The translations under genes and the position numbers were made by a program. Positions 1,556 through 10,081 of a DNA stretch of 10,081 nucleotides are shown in pieces; the stretch's first letter is position 1, and each line of letters starts with the position of its first letter. The notes under the pieces are model-generated. The model was not told where the DNA came from and did not search any database. It saw only the letters and a program-made list of their open reading frames with translations. Source of the DNA: Chloroflexota bacterium (lineage in GTDB: Bacteria; Chloroflexota; Limnocylindria; Limnocylindrales; CSP1-4); NCBI GenBank assembly GCA_021812735.1, contig JAKAMV010000283.1, positions 1-10,081 of the forward strand, given 5' to 3'.

Positions 1556-1598
1556 CGGCGGCGACCCGCGGCACGCGGCGCCGGCGGGGCCCCGGGCG

Positions 1599-4500
1599 TC
1601 ACCTCGGGGCGGCTGCCCCGTCGCTCCCGTCGCCCTCGTCGCCCGACGCCTCGAGCAGCTCGGCGACCGTCGCCGCCAGCATCGAGGGCGTGTACGGCTT
1701 GGGCAGGAAGGCGTCCGCGGTGGACTCGATGCCCCGCCGCCCGATCGCGTCCTCGGCGTACCCGGACGTGAGCAGGACCCGCATGTCCGGGCGCGTGCCC
1801 ATCAGGGCGGCAGCCAGCCCGGGCCCCCGCAGCCCCGGCATCACGACGTCGGTGAACAGCAGGTCGATGCGACCCTCATGGGCTGCGGCCACGCGGAGCG
1901 CCTCCTCGCCCGAGCCGGCGAGCAGCACGGTGTAGCCGCGACCGGCCAGGGCGCGCTGGGCCACCTGGCGGAGCACCGGCTCGTCATCGACGACCAGGAT
2001 CGTCGCGGGGCCCACCCGGTCGGGCTGGCGGGGTGCGGCGGGCCGGCCCCGGCGCTCGTCCGGCGGCGTGAGCGGCAGCAGGATGCGGAACGTGGTCCCT
2101 CGGCCGGGCACCGAGCTCGCGGACATGCGCCCGCCCGACTGCTGCACGAAGCCGTGCGCCATCGCCAGGCCCAGCCCGGTGGCGTCGTCCGCGCCGGTCG
2201 CGAAGGGCTCGAACAGCCGGTCGAGCGCCTCCGGCGAGATTCCCGGGCCGGAGTCGGCAATGACCAGGACGGCCGTCCCGGCGCCGGGCAGCGCCTCGTC
2301 GGAGCGCGGCGCCTCCACGCCGATCCGCAGCGTTCCGCCGTCGGGCATGGCCTCGCGAGCGTGGACCGCGATTGCGAGCAGAGCCTGCTCGAACAGGTTC
2401 GGGTCCAGGCTCACCGGCATCGGCTGGGGACCCGGCGAGACCGCGAGCGCCACCCGACCGCCCACCGCGCGCGACAGGATAGGCCCGGACTCGCTCACCA
2501 GGTCGCGCAGGTCGGCCCGGCGCGGCCGGAGGAAGGACCGCCGGCCGAACGCGAGCAGGCGCAGGGTCAGGGTCTCGGCCTGGCCGGCGGCGGCGGTGAT
2601 GGCCCGCGCCCCCTCCGCGATGTCGGCCGGGGTGGAGGTCAGCGGGTCCAGCAGCGCGGCGTGCCCGACGATCATGGTCAGCACGTTGTTGAGGTCGTGC
2701 GCCACGCCTCCCGCGAGCTGGGCGACCGCGTCGATCCGGGCCGTCTGGGCGAGGCGGGCGTCCTGCTCGCGCTCGAGGCTGATGTCGCGCGACATCGTTA
2801 CGCGCCCGCTCACGCGCCCGGCGGGATCGCGCAGGGCCACGACCCGCGACGAGACGCGGAACCGAGTCCCGTCCTTGGCCCGGTGCGTCACCTCGCCCGC
2901 CCAGGCCCCGCTGGCCGCGAGGGAGGCCGCGATCTCCGCCTCGAGGGCGGCGCACTCCGGCCCGAGGTGGACGCCCGGGGCCTGCCCCACCACCTCCTCG
3001 CGCAGGTACCCGTTCATCCGCTCATAGGCGCGATTGACGTACACGATCGCGCCTGCCGCGTCCGTGATGAAGATGGCGTCCGACGCCTGCTCCGACGCCT
3101 GTGCCAGTCGGTCCCGCTCCGCCTCGAGGGCCTTGCGCGCGGTCACGTCGCGCGCAATCAGCTCCACGCGGCCGTCCGCGAGCCGACTGCCGGTCACCTC
3201 CAGGGTCAGCGCGGCCCCGTCGCCGCGGACGGCTGCATATTCCACCGCCATCGCCCTGCCGCCGGCCATGGCGACGAGGTCGGCGCCAATCCTGGTCCGG
3301 TGCTCAGGCGCCACGAGGTCGGCGAACGGGCGTCCGACGAGCGAGCCCCGGGGCGCCAGCGCGATCGCCTCCGCGGCCGGGTTCGCGTAGGAGATCAGGC
3401 CAGCCTCGTCGAGGACGAAGACGCCGTCGAAGGCGCCGTCCACCAGCGCCTGGGCCCGATCCTCGGACGCCTCGGCGCGGGCGAGCGCCTCGCGGAGCTC
3501 GGTGACGTCGGCAAAGGACACCACGATCCCGGACGGCCTGCCGGTCGCGTCGAGCCCGGTGGGGACCGCGTTCGAGGAGACCCAGCGGATCTCGCCGTCC
3601 GCCTGCGGCATGCCGATCAGGACCCGCTCGGTCTTGCGCCCGGTCCGGAAGGCGATCTGGGTGGGCAGCTCCTCGGGCGGCAGGGGCGAGCCGTCCTCGC
3701 GCAGGAAGGCTGTCGCGATGGCCCGCGCGTCGCGCCCGGTCAGGTCCCCGGCGCCCGGGCCGTGGAGGCGGCGCGCGGCCTCGTTCATCATCGTGACCCG
3801 GCCGTCCGCGTCGTAGGTGATGATCCCCTCCTGGAGGATGGACACCAGATCGCGGTAGCGGGCCTCGCTGGCGCGGAGCGCCTCCTGGGCCCGGCGCTCG
3901 GCAGTCACGTCCTGGACCACCGCCTCCACGCTGCCGTCCTCGCGCAGCTGCCCGTGGAACGCGACCGTGATGACCTCGCCATCGGCCTTCCGGAAGCGGC
4001 GGTCCACCCACACCGCGGACCCGGACAGCAGCAGGTCCCGCATGCCGGCTTCCTCGGCCGCGGAGAGGTCGTGCACGGTGATCTCGGGACCCACGGCGCG
4101 CAGGTCCTCGAGCGCGTAGCCCAGCATGGCGCACGCGGCCGGGTTCGCGTCGAGGACCCAGCCGCGCTGGTCGAACACCATGATCCCGGCCGACGCCTGC
4201 TCCACGATCGAGCGGTGGCGCGCCTCGGAGGCGCGCAGGCGCTCGGCGGTCCGCAGGAGCGAGCGGGCGACGCTGAGGTCGGCGGCCAGCCGTTCCAGCA
4301 GGGCCAGCCGCTCGGCAGGCAGGGCCGCCGGGCGGCCATCCAGCACCACGAGGGCGCCGAACGCCGGCTGGTCGCCCTCGCGCATCGGCACCGAGGCGCC
4401 CGACCGGAACCCGAGCCGGTGCGCCTGCAGCCCGTACGGGCCTGCGTCCTGGGTGGCGAGATCGTCGTTGACGAAGGGCCGGCCCTCCGCGATCGCGCGG

Positions 4501-5117
4501 GCGACCGGGGTGGGGTTGGCGGCCGTGAGGTCGTCCACGCGACCGGCCAGGCAGGCGACATCGCCCGCCGCCGCCGCGACCGACGCGAACCTGCGGTCCG
4601 GGTCCGCGAGCGACACCCAGGCCAGCCGGAAGCCGGCCACATCGACCATGATCCGCGCCGCCTCCGACCAGAGCTCGGTCTCGGTGCCGGCCCGGGCGAT
4701 CGCCCGGTGGATGTCGGCGGTCGCTTCGTACAGGAGGTTCAGGTTGGCCTGGGCGTCGGGCCGCTCGCCCCGCTCCGTGAAGGCGGCCAGGACGAGGCGC
4801 CGTCCGTCGAGGTCCACGGAGGAGACGGTCGCGGTCATCGGGAGCACGTTGCCGCCGGCGGTCGCCGTGCTCACCGCGAAGGCCCGGGTTGGACCGTCCG
4901 CGACCGAGGCCATCGCGTCGCGGAGCCGACTGAGCGAGGACTGGGTGACGAGGGTGGGCGACCTGCCGATCAGCTCCTCGCGCGTCCGGCCGTAGAGGCG
5001 GCAGAGGGCCTCGTTGGCGTCCTCGACCAGCCCGCTGGACGGGTCCACGAGGAGCATGGGCAACCCGACGGCGCGGAACAGGCGGTGCGCGTCGGAGGCT
5101 GCGTCAGGATCGGTCAT
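1599..5117 (-). CDS. Soluble multi-PAS/GAF hybrid sensor histidine kinase with C-terminal receiver domain
   Basis: 1172 residues from ATG 5117; an ATG at 5156 would add 13. Neither has a clear Shine-Dalgarno site and both precede the first PAS domain, so the start is uncertain. Approximate domains: PAS 11-115, GAF 130-290, PAS 297-410, PAS 417-545, PAS 551-663, PAS 669-790, HisKA about 795-860 with H-box H807 (GGVAHDLNN), HATPase 900-1015 with DSGPGI (955-960) and GLGL (981-984), receiver 1037-1155 with D1044/D1045, phospho-acceptor D1090 (LFTDVVMPG), T1117 and K1140. No membrane segment is visible, so it should sense cytoplasmic signals: GAF and PAS domains bind small ligands, haem or flavin, unspecified here. 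Phosphate would pass from H807 to D1090 or to an external partner. No DNA-binding regulator lies nearby. Oddity: where this kinase type has NARDAMP in the N-box, this protein has HAREAMP, so the Mg-ATP asparagine is H919. Downstream is a 43-bp convergent gap without a T-rich terminator. Confidence 0.9.
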   Translation of the reverse strand: MTDPDAASDAHRLFRAVGLPMLLVDPSSGLVEDANEALCRLYGRTREELIGRSPTLVTQSSLSRLRDAMASVADGPTRAFAVSTATAGGNVLPMTATVSSVDLDGRRLVLAAFTERGERPDAQANLNLLYEATADIHRAIARAGTETELWSEAARIMVDVAGFRLAWVSLADPDRRFASVAAAAGDVACLAGRVDDLTAANPTPVARAIAEGRPFVNDDLATQDAGPYGLQAHRLGFRSGASVPMREGDQPAFGALVVLDGRPAALPAERLALLERLAADLSVARSLLRTAERLRASEARHRSIVEQASAGIMVFDQRGWVLDANPAACAMLGYALEDLRAVGPEITVHDLSAAEEAGMRDLLLSGSAVWVDRRFRKADGEVITVAFHGQLREDGSVEAVVQDVTAERRAQEALRASEARYRDLVSILQEGIITYDADGRVTMMNEAARRLHGPGAGDLTGRDARAIATAFLREDGSPLPPEELPTQIAFRTGRKTERVLIGMPQADGEIRWVSSNAVPTGLDATGRPSGIVVSFADVTELREALARAEASEDRAQALVDGAFDGVFVLDEAGLISYANPAAEAIALAPRGSLVGRPFADLVAPEHRTRIGADLVAMAGGRAMAVEYAAVRGDGAALTLEVTGSRLADGRVELIARDVTARKALEAERDRLAQASEQASDAIFITDAAGAIVYVNRAYERMNGYLREEVVGQAPGVHLGPECAALEAEIAASLAASGAWAGEVTHRAKDGTRFRVSSRVVALRDPAGRVSGRVTMSRDISLEREQDARLAQTARIDAVAQLAGGVAHDLNNVLTMIVGHAALLDPLTSTPADIAEGARAITAAAGQAETLTLRLLAFGRRSFLRPRRADLRDLVSESGPILSRAVGGRVALAVSPGPQPMPVSLDPNLFEQALLAIAVHAREAMPDGGTLRIGVEAPRSDEALPGAGTAVLVIADSGPGISPEALDRLFEPFATGADDATGLGLAMAHGFVQQSGGRMSASSVPGRGTTFRILLPLTPPDERRGRPAAPRQPDRVGPATILVVDDEPVLRQVAQRALAGRGYTVLLAGSGEEALRVAAAHEGRIDLLFTDVVMPGLRGPGLAAALMGTRPDMRVLLTSGYAEDAIGRRGIESTADAFLPKPYTPSMLAATVAELLEASGDEGDGSDGAAAPR

Positions 5118-5190
5118 CCCGGATGAGGAGTTGTCAGGCGACGAGGCTCGGGGCATGGCGCATACGAGGACGCGGACGTGGTTTCGGCCG

Positions 5191-5207
5191 CACCGCGAAT
5201 CACGGTG
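5191..5207. promoter_or_regulatory. 17-bp inverted repeat upstream of the hybrid kinase gene
   Basis: CACCGCGAATCACGGTG pairs with its own reverse complement at 7 of 8 arm positions around a central A. It lies 35 bp upstream of the ATG at 5156 and 74 bp upstream of the ATG at 5117, inside the 154-bp gap between the kinase and the small acidic gene. Size and symmetry suit a dimeric regulator. No convincing -35/-10 pair was found beside it, so an operator role is inference. Confidence 0.3.
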
Positions 5208-5252
5208 GCGTTGGCGTGCGGATATGGTCAGCCCTGTGGCGCCGCGCCGCCA

Positions 5253-5269
5253 CCCCCCCGTGCAGGGGG
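5253..5269 (-). terminator. GC hairpin just past the small acidic gene, possible terminator
   Basis: A CCCCC run at 5255-5259 and a GGGGG run at 5265-5269 form a 5-bp stem with loop GTGCA, 3 bp past the stop codon of the 88-residue gene on its downstream side. There is no T tract in either direction, so intrinsic termination is uncertain. It could be a transcript 3'-end hairpin or chance in GC-rich DNA. Confidence 0.25.
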
Positions 5270-5271
5270 CG

Positions 5272-5538
5272 TCAGGCCGCGAAGGCGACTCGCCAGCTCG
5301 CTCCCGCGCCTGCCGCGGCCGCGTCGAGACGGCCCCGCAGCGCCTCCGCCAACACCCGGACGGGACCGGGGGAGTCGGGGTCGCCGATCGCCGCATCCAG
5401 GAGCTCGCGGTCGTCGTCGGTCAGCTCGCCCTCGAACCCGCCGGCCGCGTCCGTGAAGTCCACGCCGATCCAGTCCAGCGCGGACTCGGCCTCGTCGAGG
5501 GTGGGGAACGTCATCAGCGGAGGCAGGGGCGTGTCCAT
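5272..5538 (-). CDS. Small acidic hypothetical protein (88 aa)
   Basis: The family is not recognised. From ATG 5538 the product starts MDTPLPPLMTF and is acidic in its middle (TLDEAESALDWIG, then GELTDDDRELLDAA), followed by a predicted amphipathic helix (VRVLAEALRGRLDAAAAG) and a short hydrophobic end, VAFAA. No signal peptide, membrane segment or metal-binding cysteines are seen. A second ATG at 5514 would give 80 residues; neither start has a Shine-Dalgarno site. The frame stays open upstream to 5676, but that extension only reads through the tRNA-Pro gene and is rejected. It starts 69 bp downstream of the 3' end of tRNA-Pro on the same strand, so it could share the tRNA transcript. Acidic composition and compact helical content support a real gene, but evidence is thin without homologues. 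Confidence 0.55.
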   Translation of the reverse strand: MDTPLPPLMTFPTLDEAESALDWIGVDFTDAAGGFEGELTDDDRELLDAAIGDPDSPGPVRVLAEALRGRLDAAAAGAGASWRVAFAA

Positions 5539-5607
5539 GGCGCCATGGTAGGACGCGCCGGCCGACGGCTCCGGCCGAACCCGGCAGGCGGCGAGCGTCA
5601 TCGGTGG

Positions 5608-5682
5608 TGGTCGGGGCGGTGGGATTCGGACCCACAACCTCGTGCTCCCAAAGCACGTGCGCCACCGTTGCGCCACGCCCCG
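5608..5682 (-). tRNA. trnP: tRNA-Pro(UGG), CCA encoded
   Basis: The minus strand folds as a full cloverleaf. The acceptor stem is CGGGGCG/CGCCCCG (7 of 7 pairs), then U8 G9, D-arm GCGC-AACGGTG-GCGC, A26, anticodon arm CGTGC-TTTGGGA-GCACG (anticodon TGG), variable loop AGGTT, T-arm GTGGG-TCCGAAT-CCCAC, discriminator A and encoded CCA. The first base C and A73 are normal for bacterial tRNA-Pro. Two positions are odd: the T-loop has C at position 55, where almost all tRNAs have U (pseudouridine), and the D-loop ends in G at position 21 instead of A. The genome continues after CCA with a second CCA. The 5' half, from the 3' side of the anticodon loop outwards, lies inside the left 105-bp repeat. 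The tRNA identity is firm; whether it is fully functional is open because of C55. Confidence 0.93.
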
Positions 5683-5748
5683 ACCGGATCGCCGCCCGGA
5701 AGCCCGAGGGCTTCGGTGGCCCGGGCAGCGGATCAGAGCCTACACCGG
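5644..5748. repeat. Left copy of the 105-bp direct repeat (5' half of tRNA-Pro plus 66 bp upstream)
   Basis: Identical to 7415-7519 at 104 of 105 positions, the single difference being C at 5734 against G at 7505; the offset is 1771 bp. The left border lies two bases into the 3' strand of the anticodon stem, so the repeat covers the anticodon loop, D-arm, 5' acceptor strand and 66 bp beyond the tRNA 5' end. It contains a perfect inverted repeat, GAAGCCC-GA-GGGCTTC, at 5699-5714. Flanking bases on both sides differ between copies, so the borders are sharp. This copy is part of the intact tRNA gene. Confidence 0.95.
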
Positions 5749-5764
5749 GCGACCCGGGTATCGA
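5737..5764 (-). promoter_or_regulatory. Candidate promoter of tRNA-Pro
   Basis: On the minus strand TCGATA (5764-5759, 4 of 6 to the -35 consensus) is 16 bp from TAGGCT (5742-5737, TAnnnT). Transcription would begin near 5730, giving a leader of about 48 nt that holds the 5699-5714 hairpin. The -10 is inside the 105-bp repeat and the -35 is outside it, so the right copy keeps the same -10 but has CGATCT at the -35 position. Weak by sequence alone. Confidence 0.25.
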
Positions 5765-5898
5765 GGGGCCGTGATCCCTGACGGTCGCAACCTGTTCGGA
5801 GACTGCTATCCCGGCACAGGGGTGTCAACGGAAGGTGTGGACGTCCAGGGACGAGGCGTACGCGACGCACGCGACGGGCCATCGCGGGTCTGACCGGC

Positions 5899-7131
5899 TC
5901 ACCCTCCCCAGAGCGCGGAGATCGGAACGGCGGCCAGCCTCTCCCCGAGCCCGTACGCCCGCGGCCCTGTGTGCAGGACCACGCCGGCCACGAACGTGTC
6001 CGGGTAGCGGTCCCGCAGGCCGGCGAGGTGGCGCGCGTCGGCGGGCCCGGGCGCAGCTGTCGCCTTGACCTCCATGCCGACCAGCCCGCCACCGGCAAGC
6101 TCGGCGATCAAGTCGACCTCGAAGCGGCCCTGCTGCTGGCGGACGTGATAGAGACGGGGCCGGGCGGCCGTGACCGGGAGCTCTGCCCGCAGCTGGGCCA
6201 GGACGAAGGTGTCGAGGAGCCGGCCCAGCAGGTCCCCGTCCCTGAGCACGGCGTCGGCGTCGAGGCGGAGGACGCCGCCCGCGATCGCGGGGTCGACGAG
6301 GTGCCGCTTCGGCGTCAGGACGAGGCGCTTGAGCCGGTTCGACGTCCAGGCCGGGAGCGACTCGACCACGAGCAGGTTGCCCAGCAGCCGCTCGTACGCC
6401 TGCGCGGTCTTGCGGTTGATGCCCGCCGCCTCGAGCAGCGTCTTCTCCTCGACGACGCCCGCGGTGTTGAGCGAGTAGGCCTCGAGGAATCGGCGCAGGC
6501 GGACGGGGTCACGGCCGCCCTCGAGCTGCTCGGCGTCGCGTGTGACGAGGTGGTCGACGTAGCTGTCGAGCCAGTGGCGCCTGGCCGCAGTCCCCATGCG
6601 GAGGGCCGGCTCAGGAAAGCCGCCCCGGAGCAGGAGCTCAACGTAGCCTCGGAGGTCGGGGGAGTCGGCTGCTGGAGCGAGGTCCGCCCCGGCGGCAACG
6701 CGGTCGATGAACGGCACGGCGGGCCCGAGCTCGGCCTGCTCGCGCACGGTCATCCCCACCATCGGCACCCGGGTGAGGCGGCCGGTCCCCGGCCAGAGAT
6801 CGCCGTCGAGATCGCTCCGCGCGGAGCCTGTGACGATGAACCGGCCTGCCCTCGGGTCGGCGTCCACGGCGCGCTTCACGGCACCCAAGACGCCCGGCAC
6901 GACCTGCCACTCGTCGAGCAGCACGGGCTCGGGCAGGCCCCGCAGCGCCGCGTCGGGGTCGGCTCGGAACGCCGCCGCCTCCGCCTCGCTGTCTAGGCGG
7001 ACGACCGTGGCGGCGCGGCGGGCGGCGGTGGTGGTCTTGCCCGTCGCGCGGGGTCCGGTGACGAAGATGGCCGGCAGCTCGCCGATCAGCTCGTCGATCA
7101 GCGGGTCGACGGCGCGAGGGAGGTAGTCCAC
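5899..7131 (-). CDS. AAA_14 / DUF4143 family ATPase (410 aa)
   Basis: Starts at GTG 7131 (VDYLPRAVDPLIDEL). Residues 20-135 are the AAA_14 ATPase, with Walker A GPRATGKT (26-33), Walker B VLLDEWQ (D73, E74) and a sensor stretch FIVTGSARSDL (98-108). GGFPEP (170-175) is typical of these proteins. Residues 205-280 resemble the winged-helix part, and the C-terminal DUF4143 region carries EVDLIAEL and MEVKAT, giving D340 and E354-x-K356, which match a PD-(D/E)xK nuclease-like pattern; catalysis is not shown for the family. Length is normal and no frameshift is seen. The cellular role of this widespread family is poorly known. No Shine-Dalgarno site precedes the GTG; TAGTCT (7143-7138) lies 6 bp before it, so a leaderless transcript is possible. 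Three 23-bp repeats end 9 bp upstream, which suggests autoregulation. It is the only gene between the tRNA-Pro half repeats. Confidence 0.9.
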   Translation of the reverse strand: MDYLPRAVDPLIDELIGELPAIFVTGPRATGKTTTAARRAATVVRLDSEAEAAAFRADPDAALRGLPEPVLLDEWQVVPGVLGAVKRAVDADPRAGRFIVTGSARSDLDGDLWPGTGRLTRVPMVGMTVREQAELGPAVPFIDRVAAGADLAPAADSPDLRGYVELLLRGGFPEPALRMGTAARRHWLDSYVDHLVTRDAEQLEGGRDPVRLRRFLEAYSLNTAGVVEEKTLLEAAGINRKTAQAYERLLGNLLVVESLPAWTSNRLKRLVLTPKRHLVDPAIAGGVLRLDADAVLRDGDLLGRLLDTFVLAQLRAELPVTAARPRLYHVRQQQGRFEVDLIAELAGGGLVGMEVKATAAPGPADARHLAGLRDRYPDTFVAGVVLHTGPRAYGLGERLAAVPISALWGG

Positions 7132-7140
7132 GAGTCTAGA

Positions 7141-7202
7141 CTACCACTCTGCCGCATCTTGGAGTACCACTTTGCCGCACGATAGGGTGCCACTCTGCCG
7201 CG
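7141..7202. repeat. Three 23-bp-period direct repeats in front of the ATPase gene (iteron-like)
   Basis: Units at 7141-7156, 7164-7179 and 7187-7202 share the 16-bp core STRCCACTYTGCCGCR, where unit 2 reads GTACCACTTTGCCGCA. Pairwise identities are 14/16, 13/16 and 13/16, with unrelated 7-bp spacers and exact 23-bp spacing. The array ends 9 bp from the GTG start and its first unit overlaps a 10-bp palindrome, AGTCTAGACT (7133-7142), and the putative -10. Conserved cores with variable spacers suggest binding sites for a protein on one DNA face, roughly two helical turns apart: an operator array, an origin-like iteron set or a recombinase site. No fourth unit was seen on either side. Confidence 0.85.
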
Positions 7203-7414
7203 GCCTGGCCGCCTGACCGTTAGGTAGCCCAGGGTCGGCACCGAAGGACGTGCTGGAGGCGCCCGGGCTCAGCTCCCATCGGTCGCGCGAGGCGCCCCAC
7301 ATCACCGGGCACGGGAAGACCCGCCCCGATCGCGAAGCGCACGATAACGGGAACCTTCACCGCTCGCGGGTCCGTGCTCAGAAGGGCTGCGGCTCCACCG
7401 TTCCGGCCCCGGCG
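7203..7414. other. Gene-free stretch between the 23-bp repeats and the right 105-bp repeat
   Basis: No reading frame with a plausible start and protein-like composition was found in these 212 bp; frames crossing it run on into the repeat in a frame shared with the tRNA shadow. No strong hairpin or promoter was seen. On the minus strand the 30 bp next to the right repeat contain GGGGCCGGAACGGTGGAGCC, which loosely resembles the tRNA-Pro 5' region but does not align well enough to call. Confidence 0.5.
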
Positions 7415-7453
7415 GCTCCCAAAGCACGTGCGCCACCGTTGCGCCACGCCCCG
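7415..7453 (-). pseudogene. Truncated 5' half of tRNA-Pro
   Basis: Reads CGGGGCG-TG-GCGC-AACGGTG-GCGC-A-CGTGC-TTTGGGA-GC on the minus strand, identical to the intact gene from the first base to two bases past the anticodon loop. Beyond that the sequence (CGCCGGGGCC...) has no T-arm or 3' acceptor strand, so no cloverleaf can form. The sequence is undecayed, which points to a recent duplication or to selection for the site, for example as a recombination site. Confidence 0.85.
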
Positions 7454-7519
7454 ACCGGATCGCCGCCCGGAAGCCCGAGGGCTTCGGTGGCCCGGGCAGC
7501 GGATGAGAGCCTACACCGG
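7415..7519. repeat. Right copy of the 105-bp direct repeat
   Basis: Matches 5644-5748 at 104 of 105 bases in direct orientation. The inverted repeat GAAGCCC-GA-GGGCTTC recurs at 7470-7485. The right border is next to the leader of the zinc-ribbon gene. If the unit integrated here, this copy and the DNA to its right would be the original upstream flank of tRNA-Pro. Confidence 0.95.
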
Positions 7520-7734
7520 TGGCGGCGGAGATCGAGTGCGCGGCGGGGCGAGTGGCGGCCGGGATGAGCTGCCGCGGACACCGGCGTGGAGTCTTGTTGC
7601 GCCGGGCGACGCAACGGCGCGGTGCCCGCACAACGGTGGGACGGGGCGCCGTCGGTCGAGCGACGGCCCCGATCGGGCCATGGTGGCGGTACCCTCACGC
7701 AGGGACGCTTGGGTCCGGGGGCCCGGAGGTCTTG
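7520..7734 (+). other. Leader region of the zinc-ribbon gene with a small stem-loop
   Basis: These 215 bp hold no credible gene; the plus frame is open back to 7519 but the start at 7735 has the ribosome site. A 6-bp inverted repeat GTTGCG/CGCAAC with an 8-base loop is at 7596-7615. TACCCT at 7690-7695 could be a -10 but has no matching -35. No known riboswitch was recognised. Confidence 0.4.
7725..7730 (+). promoter_or_regulatory. Shine-Dalgarno site that decides the zinc-ribbon gene start
   Basis: GGAGGT is 4 bp before the GTG at 7735 and is the clearest ribosome site in the window. It favours this start over the in-frame GTG at 7519, which falls at the edge of the 105-bp repeat and would add 72 arginine-rich residues of low plausibility. 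Confidence 0.75.
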
Positions 7735-8754
7735 GTGAATCTGCTGCGCCGCATGCTCGGGCGAGGTCGCCCCGGTGACGGGGTTCCTGCGCCGCTGGAT
7801 GACGCTGCCGTTCTCTCGTCGGAACTGTCGGTCGCGCCCGCCGAGCCCGGGGCTGGCCCGTCCGAGGCGGCTGGGATGACGTTCCGGCTCGCCGACGCGG
7901 CGCCAGGCGTTGACGCGGCCGAGCCCCGCCCCGACCCGATCGCCTGTCCCTATTGCGCCGCCCTGATCGACCCGCCGCCGCGCTCGCGCCGCTGCCCGTC
8001 CTGCCGGCAGCCGGTGATCGTCCGGCGCTGGGACGGATCCGCCCGCTACCTCACGGAGTCGGCGGCGGCCGTGGTCGCCGCCCAGAGGAACCGCCGAGCG
8101 GACGAGCGACGCTGGTTCGCGGACCGGGCGCGCTGGCTGGCGCTGGCCCGATCGGTGCACGCGCCCGAGGATCTGCGCCGCCAGGTTGTCGCGATGCCGC
8201 TCTCGGATCGCGCCGTCGAGGCGGCCCGGGAGATGTACCGGGCAGCGGCTGACCAGACGGCCCGCGAGGCGCGCAAGGCCGAGCAGTGGGTGCAGCTGAG
8301 TCGCGTTCGGTCCGCCCAGGCGACGGCGCTCTACGCCGATCGGGGCTCCCCGCTGCCGCCGCCGGACGACATCCTGGCGCTGTACCGCGAGGGGCGGGCG
8401 GCCGTGCTTCGGTCCCTCGCGTCGCACTCGACGGTCGCGGAGCTGGCGGGCTCGGCCTGCTGCAAGGCGTGTCGCGCTGCCGATGGCGAGCTGGTGTCGA
8501 TCGCCGCCGAGCTGCGCAAGTCGCGGCTTCCCCACGCGGGCTGCCCGCGCGGCCTGTGCGACTGCGACTGGTTCATCGCGGTGCCGGAGGCCAAGCCACT
8601 CAAGCGCCGACGCCCCCGACCCGCAGCCTCGCCGCTGGGGACCGGGTTCGCCGCGACCTCCCGCGCGGCCGGGCCCGATCCCGTTGCGGCAGGTCCCTAC
8701 GAGCCGAGCTTGGGCAGCGCCGCGGCCAGCTCCGAGGCGAGCCCCGAGGCGTAG
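7735..8754 (+). CDS. Zinc-ribbon protein of unknown function with C-terminal Cys/His cluster (339 aa)
   Basis: Starts VNLLRRMLGRGRPGDG after a good ribosome site. Residues 1-68 are low-complexity Pro/Ala/Asp. Residues 71-90 form a zinc ribbon, CPYC-x12-CPSC. Residues 100-240 are charged and helical (ERRWFADRARWLALAR; AADQTAREARKAEQWVQ). Residues 242-277 form a second cluster: C242, C243, C246, then D250-G251, H267, C270, C275 and C277, ending LPHAGCPRGLCDCDWF. The tail after 285 is basic and Ala/Pro-rich. No signal peptide or membrane segment is visible, so it is probably cytoplasmic. The CxxC...DG...LPHxxC layout faintly recalls C-terminal ends of Mu gpF-like phage head proteins, but this is pattern resemblance only and no phage genes are near. 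No function is assigned. The last 58 bp overlap the convergent acyltransferase gene. Confidence 0.75.
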   Translation: MNLLRRMLGRGRPGDGVPAPLDDAAVLSSELSVAPAEPGAGPSEAAGMTFRLADAAPGVDAAEPRPDPIACPYCAALIDPPPRSRRCPSCRQPVIVRRWDGSARYLTESAAAVVAAQRNRRADERRWFADRARWLALARSVHAPEDLRRQVVAMPLSDRAVEAAREMYRAAADQTAREARKAEQWVQLSRVRSAQATALYADRGSPLPPPDDILALYREGRAAVLRSLASHSTVAELAGSACCKACRAADGELVSIAAELRKSRLPHAGCPRGLCDCDWFIAVPEAKPLKRRRPRPAASPLGTGFAATSRAAGPDPVAAGPYEPSLGSAAASSEASPEA

Positions 8755-10081
8755 GTCCGCGTGAGGTGGCCCTGGTCGCGGTAGATCAGGAAGCGGCCGT
8801 AGACCGGCGTGCAGGGGTCCGTCCGGCAGACCCACGGCGTGGGGTCGATGAACGCCGCGCCAGCGGCGGCCGCGGCCTGCGATTCCAGCGCCACCTGCCC
8901 TGCGTCCACGGCCTGCGCGAAGGGGACGGCGCAGGCGGTGATGCTGCCCAGGTGCTGCGACAGGCAGGCGACGGGGTCGGCGAGCGACCGCGGCGTGTCG
9001 CCGATCAGGGCCACGCGGGCTGCGCTCGCGGCGAGGGCGGTCAGCGTGGTCGTCAGGCCCTTGGCCCACAGGTCCGTCCGAGCCGCGACGGCCACCGGCT
9101 TGCCGCCGACGACGAACTCGTAGGCGCGCGAGGTGGACACGATGACGAGCGCCGGTCGCTCGGCCGCGAGATGGGCGAGGACGCCGGCGCGCCACTGGTC
9201 GCACTCGGTGTAGGGACGGTTGTAGGTCGGGTTCCACACGGTCACGGAAGCCGGGGTACAGCCCGACTTGGTCAGCGTCTCAAGGCGCCAGCCCTGCTTG
9301 CTGGCGAGCCGCTGCAGGGCCGGAAACCACTGCGCCGCGTGCGAATCCCCGAACAGCGCCACGGTGGTGGCGCTTGAGGTGGCGCCGAAGACGCAGTTGG
9401 GCGGCAGCCTCACGGTCGCGAAGTCGAGGTGGCAGCCGTCAGAGTAGATGACCGGCAGGTCGTTGGCCGCGTTGAGCAGCGAGGGGACGAGATCGGCCGG
9501 GACCGGGCCGGGCGCGGGCGCGGGCAGGGAAGGGGCCGCCGTGGCAGCCGACGACGAGCCGGCGGCACTCGACGCTGTCGGCGCGGATGCCGTGGCGGGC
9601 GACGTGGCGAGCGACGCTGACGCGCCGGGCAGCCCGGACGCCACCGGCATGCCCGACGGGAGCGTCACGTCCGTGGTGGACCCACCCACGTCCGGGCCGT
9701 TGGCGGCCAGACGGGCCGTGGCGAGTGCGTTGGCCGAGACCGACGTCAGCGCCACCGCGAGCGAGAGCGTCCCGGCCAGCGCCAGCGAGCGCCGCGAGGC
9801 CAGGCCCACGAACCGGCCGTGCCGGATGGGGTCCTCCACGAACCTCTGGCTCAGCGCCGCCACGCCGACCGCCGCTGCGGCGAGGAGCAGACGGATCGGC
9901 AGCGGCAGCTCGTCCACGCCGGCGAACGCCGCGGGGATGACGAGGAGCGGCCAGTGCCACAGGTACAGCGAGTACGAGATGCGGCCGAGATAGCGCATCG
10001 GCCCCGCGGAGAGCGCGCGGGCCGGCCCGGAGATTCCGGTCGCCACGTCCGCCGTGGAAGTCGCGCGCCGGGCGGCCTCCG
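8697..10081 (-). CDS. Acyltransferase-3 / SGNH-domain protein (OafA-like O-acetyltransferase), N-terminus cut by window
   Basis: The frame is open to the right edge (codons before GTG 10046 read EAARRATSTAD), so the start and most of the membrane domain are missing. Numbering from that GTG, 17-75 hold the last conserved part of the acyltransferase-3 domain: RYLGRISYSLYLWHWPLLV, two hydrophobic segments, then FVEDPIR (69-75). A further membrane helix (87-108) leads to a Ser/Thr/Ala/Pro-rich linker (about 120-185) and an SGNH domain at 195-449, with block I GDSHA (233-237) and the catalytic pair D424-x-x-H427 in RDQGHLT. Proteins of this build, such as OafA, move acetyl groups across the membrane and attach them to surface polysaccharide or cell-wall sugars; the acceptor here is unknown. 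Cysteines C205, C218, C263, C282, C361, C372, C407 and C412 suggest disulfides in an extracytoplasmic domain. Confidence 0.92.
   Translation of the reverse strand, partial: EAARRATSTADVATGISGPARALSAGPMRYLGRISYSLYLWHWPLLVIPAAFAGVDELPLPIRLLLAAAAVGVAALSQRFVEDPIRHGRFVGLASRRSLALAGTLSLAVALTSVSANALATARLAANGPDVGGSTTDVTLPSGMPVASGLPGASASLATSPATASAPTASSAAGSSSAATAAPSLPAPAPGPVPADLVPSLLNAANDLPVIYSDGCHLDFATVRLPPNCVFGATSSATTVALFGDSHAAQWFPALQRLASKQGWRLETLTKSGCTPASVTVWNPTYNRPYTECDQWRAGVLAHLAAERPALVIVSTSRAYEFVVGGKPVAVAARTDLWAKGLTTTLTALAASAARVALIGDTPRSLADPVACLSQHLGSITACAVPFAQAVDAGQVALESQAAAAAGAAFIDPTPWVCRTDPCTPVYGRFLIYRDQGHLTRTYASGLASELAAALPKLGS

Follow-up and report, generated by a model that had tools for sequence, protein, structure and literature searches.

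Among the genomic islands compiled in Islander, 159 carry a 5' fragment of the target tRNA gene as compared to 3760 with a 3' fragment; the part of that description used here states that an integrase is required in each candidate, that candidates below 2 kb are rejected and that Xer proteins are excluded by strict cut-offs (PMC4383910). Targeting of the 5' half is ascribed, in the relevant section of a review, only to pTN3-like integrases in archaea and is seldom found in bacteria (PMC8371274). Here, a 10,081-nucleotide stretch of contig JAKAMV010000283.1 from a Chloroflexota bacterium of the class Limnocylindria (hereafter, the window) was analyzed. It harbors a 1771-bp unit consisting of a single ATPase gene located between an intact tRNA-Pro gene and a second, stranded 5' half of this tRNA. 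With a probability of roughly 0.83, this unit is a non-autonomous integrative cassette which is moved in trans by a tyrosine recombinase targeting 5' halves and acting in the anticodon loop.

The 5'-fragment islands of Islander are described as being built like the window, with an intact tRNA at one end, a displaced 5' fragment located upstream in the same orientation and a crossover near the anticodon loop; according to the rules quoted above, one-gene units such as that of the window would have remained uncounted (PMC4383910). With pTN3-like integrases the rebuilt tRNA is reported to be expressed from the element side, as it would be in our model; unlike the window unit, these systems are archaeal and have the integrase on board in the account considered here (PMC8371274). 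Integrons and clusters of attC sites lacking integron integrases (CALINs) resemble the family described below in that, as outlined in the source, small and often one-gene cassettes occupy a fixed platform and the enzyme comes from elsewhere (PMC11389934). The microcin H47 island is small, lacks a recombinase of its own and depends on functions provided in trans for excision and integration; it is a single system of 13 kb, and its summary mentions neither a tRNA half nor arrays (PMC3191183). The additive flexible islands of Methylophilaceae comprise modules of 330 bp-42 kb (1-63 genes), each located after 20-nt tRNA-Lys repeats; the repeat is described as the last 20 nt, and the summarized account mentions no integrase link or shared end (PMC10872708). 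Judged from its sequence, the reverse complement of the 20-mer printed there looks like a tRNA 5' end. As trans-moved islands (microcin H47) and 5'-fragment islands have both been described, this kind of element is already known. The literature searched (one library) revealed no 5'-half tRNA units which comprise one gene, lack an integrase, share an end and partly form arrays within one class; what appears to be new here is the occurrence of such units, sharing an end and partly arrayed, in many genomes of one class.

The sole tRNA gene identified in the window by ARAGORN is a tRNA-Pro(UGG), reported as Pro(tgg), at 5608..5682 on the minus strand (Rfam tRNA 64.2 bits). Its 5' half belongs to a 105-bp direct repeat on the same strand. 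The left copy (5644..5748) covers the first 39 nt of the tRNA, as far as 2 nt beyond the anticodon loop, and 66 bp of upstream leader; the right copy (7415..7519), which joins the right flank, contains a stranded tRNA-Pro 5' half (7415..7453) without the 3' half. Both copies are spaced by 1771 bp and identical at 104 of 105 positions, with the sole mismatch at position 5734. These data confirmed the original prediction with respect to coordinates, identity and the assignment of the copies to an intact and a stranded tRNA. Extension of the repeat gave 122 bp at 93% in a repeat search of the window, and a comparison of the flanks set the repeat apart from chance with E = 2e-54. An Rfam scan of the right copy and of the corresponding half at another locus (L155) gave no match. 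The repeat edge is located at the anticodon loop TTTGGGA (5646..5652, minus strand; second copy at 7417-7423), where the crossover presumably takes place. Furthermore, the tRNA is restored at one end of the unit and the displaced fragment lies at the other, on the same strand and on the correct side. The leader lies within the repeat, in line with the earlier proposal that the element brings its own leader; the tRNA-Pro 3' half (5608-5645) would then be native, whereas the 5' half and the leader would have arrived with the unit.

Between the repeats one gene was found (5899..7131, minus strand). It encodes a 410-aa ATPase with AAA_14 and DUF4143 domains which is assigned by PADLOC to PDC-S01 (E 4.7e-104), a candidate single-gene defence family. 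No integrase homologue was found in the window; the unit was therefore classified as non-autonomous and not as an autonomous island. Additionally, it contains a conserved element end next to the half-tRNA (7321..7414, minus strand), recognisable only by comparison across genomes.

This comparison was carried out with 177 genomes of the class Limnocylindria, present as draft contigs (G and L numbers denote genomes and loci). In G023, G033 and G074, a DNA search revealed half-tRNA-Pro matches ending exactly at the repeat edge seen in the window. A pattern search identified 16 stranded tRNA-Pro 5' halves with 0-1 mismatch in 12 of the 177 genomes, and a reversed control pattern gave none. Half-sites were counted only if the match ended in GAGCCG with 0-1 mismatch; inclusion of G054 and G064 at 2 mismatches increases the count to 18 half-sites in 14 genomes, and the raw tally of 40/177 genomes mostly reflects intact tRNAs at 2 mismatches. 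Wherever a half and an intact tRNA-Pro were both present on the fetched stretch (eight loci with 10 halves, window included), the half was located upstream and on the same strand. The 235 loci overlap and had been fetched for tRNA-Pro, ATPase or integrase, so that the finding of 5' halves only (12 rows) is biased; likewise, 20 tRNA-Pro regions were chosen from genomes without a half-site match and with long contigs, and the absence of half-sites there gives no frequency. The half-site pattern had no match in IMG/VR, and window positions 7300-7540 had none among the PLSDB plasmids.

A conserved element end of about 95 bp is common to 19 sites, namely that of the window and 18 further half-sites from 13 additional genomes. 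Beyond the edge, its consensus is approximately GGGAG/CCGC..GGGC....GCGG.GTAG....CTGAGC....GAGCGG.GAAGGCGCCGATTATTGTGCG. After removal of the tRNA part and CCG, the score of each site was calculated with a profile of the 18 remaining ones. All 19 sites scored 15.9-69.9 bits as compared to at most 6.2 bits for 200 shuffles each (order-1 Markov samples); the window end reached 39.3 bits, its shuffles at most 1.3. Sites with less than 100 bases (L153) were omitted to give these 19, and an alignment of 18 also omits the truncated second site of L188. The best conserved motif of the end is represented in the window by GTTATCGTGCGC (7337..7348, minus strand), possibly an arm-type integrase site. CGATTATTGTGCG is found in the far end of tRNA-Pro units and a related motif in some leaders, none being evident in the leader of the window; at other tRNAs, a CAGTTATACGCTGT-like motif occurs in the leader as well as in the far end of several elements. 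We read the CAGTTATACGCTGT-like and CGATTATTGTGCG motifs as putative arm-type integrase sites. A folded attC-like site was not supported by the 18 aligned ends (covariation term -0.43, compensatory change in 4 of 21 pairs). Unlike in integrons and CALINs, the site is a half-tRNA with a conserved end that looks double-stranded.

An empty site, as expected by the original prediction, exists in G024 (L205). This genome is syntenic with the window, with 94% DNA identity over 1-1563, 73% over 5267-5747 (small open reading frame (ORF), tRNA-Pro and leader) and 74% over 8727-10001 (SGNH gene). Window positions 7415-7518 and the left copy align to one common stretch of G024, and no counterpart of 5748-7414 was found there; G024 possesses a single tRNA-Pro with leader and lacks both the half and the ATPase. 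In G024, the gene located between tRNA-Pro and the SGNH gene is unlike window 7735-8754, hence the right flank has changed too. A sensor-kinase gene (window 1564-5266) is also absent in G024 between matching flanks, with no half-tRNA at the ends of the gene. The neighbourhood varies otherwise as well. The right-flank protein of the window gave 80 candidates and no confirmed match on genome contigs, and only distant matches within the class (15/177 genomes). The order rph-rdgB-tRNA-Pro is recurrent in Limnocylindria. In L290, L291, L294 and L295, rdgB lies 74-160 bp from the tRNA-Pro 5' end, distances being counted to the start of the tblastn match and not to the start codon. In L194, an integrase element and a half-site are located between rdgB and tRNA-Pro; in other genomes this gap extends up to about 8 kb with no detectable half-site.

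Ten integrase-less units were delimited on both sides and span about 1.2-3.9 kb: the window unit with 1771 bp and those of L154 (1559 bp), L155 (1230 bp), L186 (1408 and 3913 bp), L188 (1427 bp), L189 (1671 bp), L195 (1700 bp) and L197 (1523 and 1690 bp). A tblastn search (E <= 1e-12) detected no homologue of the XerC-like integrase described below in any of them. As anticipated, the identical half-tRNA edge brackets different genes in other genomes. The DUF4143 ATPase of the window is replaced by a major facilitator superfamily transporter in L154 and in one L197 unit, by Fic proteins matching SoFic in L189 and L195, by a PIN protein with a MazE-like protein (24.0 bits, just below cut-off) and by a Polbeta-type nucleotidyltransferase with other genes in L186, and by HTH_17 and DUF6036 nucleotidyltransferase genes in L188; the cargo of L155 and of the second L197 unit gave no identification. 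Furthermore, a degenerate site and a half-site enclose a SoFic-like gene and a nucleotidyltransferase gene in L188, and a glyoxalase gene adjoins a half-site in L191. Frequently, the cargo amounts to a single defence-like gene or a toxin-antitoxin-like pair; integron cassettes carry toxin-antitoxin cargo, too. The original prediction had regarded half-tRNAs in genomes without the ATPase as an argument against insertion. Such halves do occur upstream of tRNA-Pro, but they bracket other genes and adjoin the conserved end, which favours a family of insertions.

The window holds a single unit, whereas arrays of small cassettes at one platform were found in L186, L188, L197 and L256. Degenerate extra sites in L186 (8347-8446, 12416-12475) and L188 (3373-3449) extend these arrays and split the 3913-bp unit. 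Across L186-L190 modules recur in varying order, with 93-97% identity for Fic, 83-88% for the nucleotidyltransferase, 93% for DUF6036 and 88-90% for PIN. At the tRNA-Gly of L256, an integrase unit lies beside the tRNA. Past its half-site follows a unit which lacks an integrase and comprises a metallo-beta-lactamase-fold gene and another half-site; this is the layout which use of the integrase in trans would produce.

A tyrosine recombinase of 314-316 aa is encoded beside tRNA-Pro in L194 (G077) and L203 (G108), so that relatives with an integrase next to the tRNA, as looked for in the original prediction, exist. The protein has Phage_integrase and SAM-like N domains, and the nearest models are XerC, XerD and XerA, all below cut-offs. 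TGARRAE, GKG, HPHEFRH, GW and RYA are readable in its sequence, which we take to be the catalytic boxes. Unlike in integrons, the integrases of these relatives stay far below the cut-off of the integron integrase model (52.6-54.7 bits vs 265). The XerC-like family may well escape the Xer cut-offs stated for Islander (PMC4383910). At E <= 1e-40, relatives of the integrase were found in 51/177 genomes (78 rows). Of these rows, 48 were examined, 30 given as loci and 18 more; refetched loci (L236-L255, L274, L275) were counted once, and the second 3'-side integrases at tRNA-Gly (L224/L240 and L229/L241) were excluded. In 37/48 cases the gene flanks a tRNA at its 5' side and is oriented divergently from it, 32 of them at 108-151 bp; six lie on the 3' side and five without a nearby tRNA. 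The 5'-side integrases use tRNAs for Pro, Val, Ala, Thr, Arg, Lys, Met, Gly and His, and for the G108 protein all three top rows, one of them the protein itself, are located at tRNA-Pro. The 5' half is duplicated in nine elements whose integrase lies on the 5' side and whose end was mapped (L236, L238, L240, L242, L244, L251, L256, L269 and L194), the 3' half in two elements with a 3'-side integrase (L273, L275; a weak 5'-half match in L273 with 8/37 mismatches was treated as noise). Hence, the side of the integrase is linked to the half which is duplicated. The IMG/VR contig L299 carries a relative of the integrase (65%) at the 5' side of tRNA-Val together with a terminase, and the IMG/VR contig L300 another one (55%) accompanied by tape-measure and head proteins, in a stretch devoid of tRNAs, indicating that phages also use this integrase family. 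With regard to phage satellite genes next to the integrase, L194 encodes a primase/helicase-like and, weakly, a regulator-like protein, and the window unit encodes none.

Two further arrangements were observed at tRNA-Gly. In L241 (3778-6003) and L240 (191-2416), tRNA-Gly(CCC) lies between two integrases of the same family, one per side. L273 (8586-9292) contains two 3'-half copies of tRNA-Gly(TCC), 664 bp apart and downstream of the tRNA, possibly a mini-unit in the usual 3'-half orientation.

The window unit could also be what is left of a decayed island which lost its own integrase and everything but the ATPase, with no mobilisation in trans. The 9.6-kb integrase-bearing element of L194 at tRNA-Pro agrees with such an origin: its end is of the same type as in the integrase-less units (84.3 bits; 37.2 leave-one-out). 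Three cassette genomes without a findable family integrase point in the same direction. However, independent decay would not be expected to yield ten similarly small units with different complete genes and reordered modules, and the window repeats differ at just 1/105 positions; we therefore consider a decayed island unlikely. Duplication through homologous or illegitimate recombination, without any site-specific step, would account for near-identical copies that take in 66 bp of non-tRNA leader. It is very improbable in view of the identical edge in many genomes, the adjoining conserved non-tRNA end, the relatedness of the half-site ends by leave-one-out scores and the way in which 5'- and 3'-half duplications track the integrase side. 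Still less probable is that the ATPase itself drives insertion and produces long target duplications whose length varies. Of the ATPase loci, 7/72, window included, do have flanking direct repeats (E <= 1e-4) within 600 bp, as compared to 3/143 control ORFs, but the tRNA-Pro end is found with many other cargoes, none of the ATPase loci L001-L080 matches the end profile and, to our knowledge, DUF4143 is not a known recombinase. An assembly chimera at a repeated tRNA, conceivable for an apparently metagenome-type record since repeats are prone to misjoins, is practically negligible because the structure recurs in other genomes and contigs and the proteins clustering with the ATPase come from 2 contigs.

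The preferred explanation, a cassette moved in trans, is compatible with the following sequence of events. A circle containing the leader, the tRNA-Pro 5' half, the conserved end and one gene would recombine with the host tRNA inside the 7-bp anticodon loop. Leader and 5' half of the circle would join the host 3' half to give today's intact tRNA; beyond the gene, the native 5' half would be left stranded. The enzyme acting in trans would be a tyrosine recombinase and most likely a member of the XerC-like family encoded divergently beside tRNA 5' ends. Repeated insertions at the rebuilt tRNA could generate the arrays seen in relatives. The checks carried out support the earlier proposal of a very small non-autonomous element with the 5' half on board and the anticodon loop as its site of exchange.

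Several points weigh against this explanation. Movement of the cassettes and the action in trans are deduced from the arrangement of the loci. The cassette carriers G029, G004 and G033 contain no XerC-like family integrase at E <= 1e-40, with 2-4 other PF00589 proteins each. The near-identical leaders in the window also fit local duplication or gene conversion. Nine loci show half-sites with no intact tRNA on the fetched stretch, and with draft contigs shared descent is not separable from repeated insertion.

The surroundings of the ATPase gene show repeats of their own. Immediately upstream of the gene (7137..7208), a 23-nt repeat, which reads TGCGGCARAGTGG on the minus strand, is present in three copies. 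Repeats of TGCGGCAGAGTGGTA, often with a spacing of about 23 nt, precede the start of the DUF4143 ATPase directly in the window and in 11/80 loci (L001, L003, L004, L006, L007, L008, L010-L013, L018); they resemble an operator or some other self-recognised site. In L011, L017, L042, L043, L055 and L059, DUF4143 ATPases are flanked by direct repeats of 20-180 bp without a tie to a tRNA, the repeat in L011 having 36 bp and 100% identity. Duplications of the 5' half of tRNA-Arg(CCG), 3.4-3.6 kb away, were observed in L014 (1924-5555) and L079 (2414-5931). The L079 unit contains a truncated DUF4143 ATPase; the L014 unit contains a PIN protein, with the ATPase just outside. A comparison of the ATPase with viral contigs gave 13 candidates, none of which was confirmed.

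More tentatively, and with the odds somewhat against it, Limnocylindria may possess an integron-like form of gene capture with a tRNA gene as the platform. The anticodon loop of tRNA-Pro, and also of tRNA-Gly, tRNA-Arg and others, would be the insertion point, and half-tRNAs with the conserved arm would serve as cassette sites. One-gene defence or toxin-antitoxin cassettes would line up there, each insertion swapping leader and 5' half, with tyrosine recombinases of phages and satellite-like elements acting in trans.

The occurrence of one integrase family on either side of tRNA genes offers a natural test of what determines which half gets rebuilt. If the cassettes move in trans, tRNA genes would be platforms for single defence and toxin-antitoxin genes; furthermore, each insertion would replace the leader and the 5' half of the tRNA and would thereby couple gene capture with tRNA expression.

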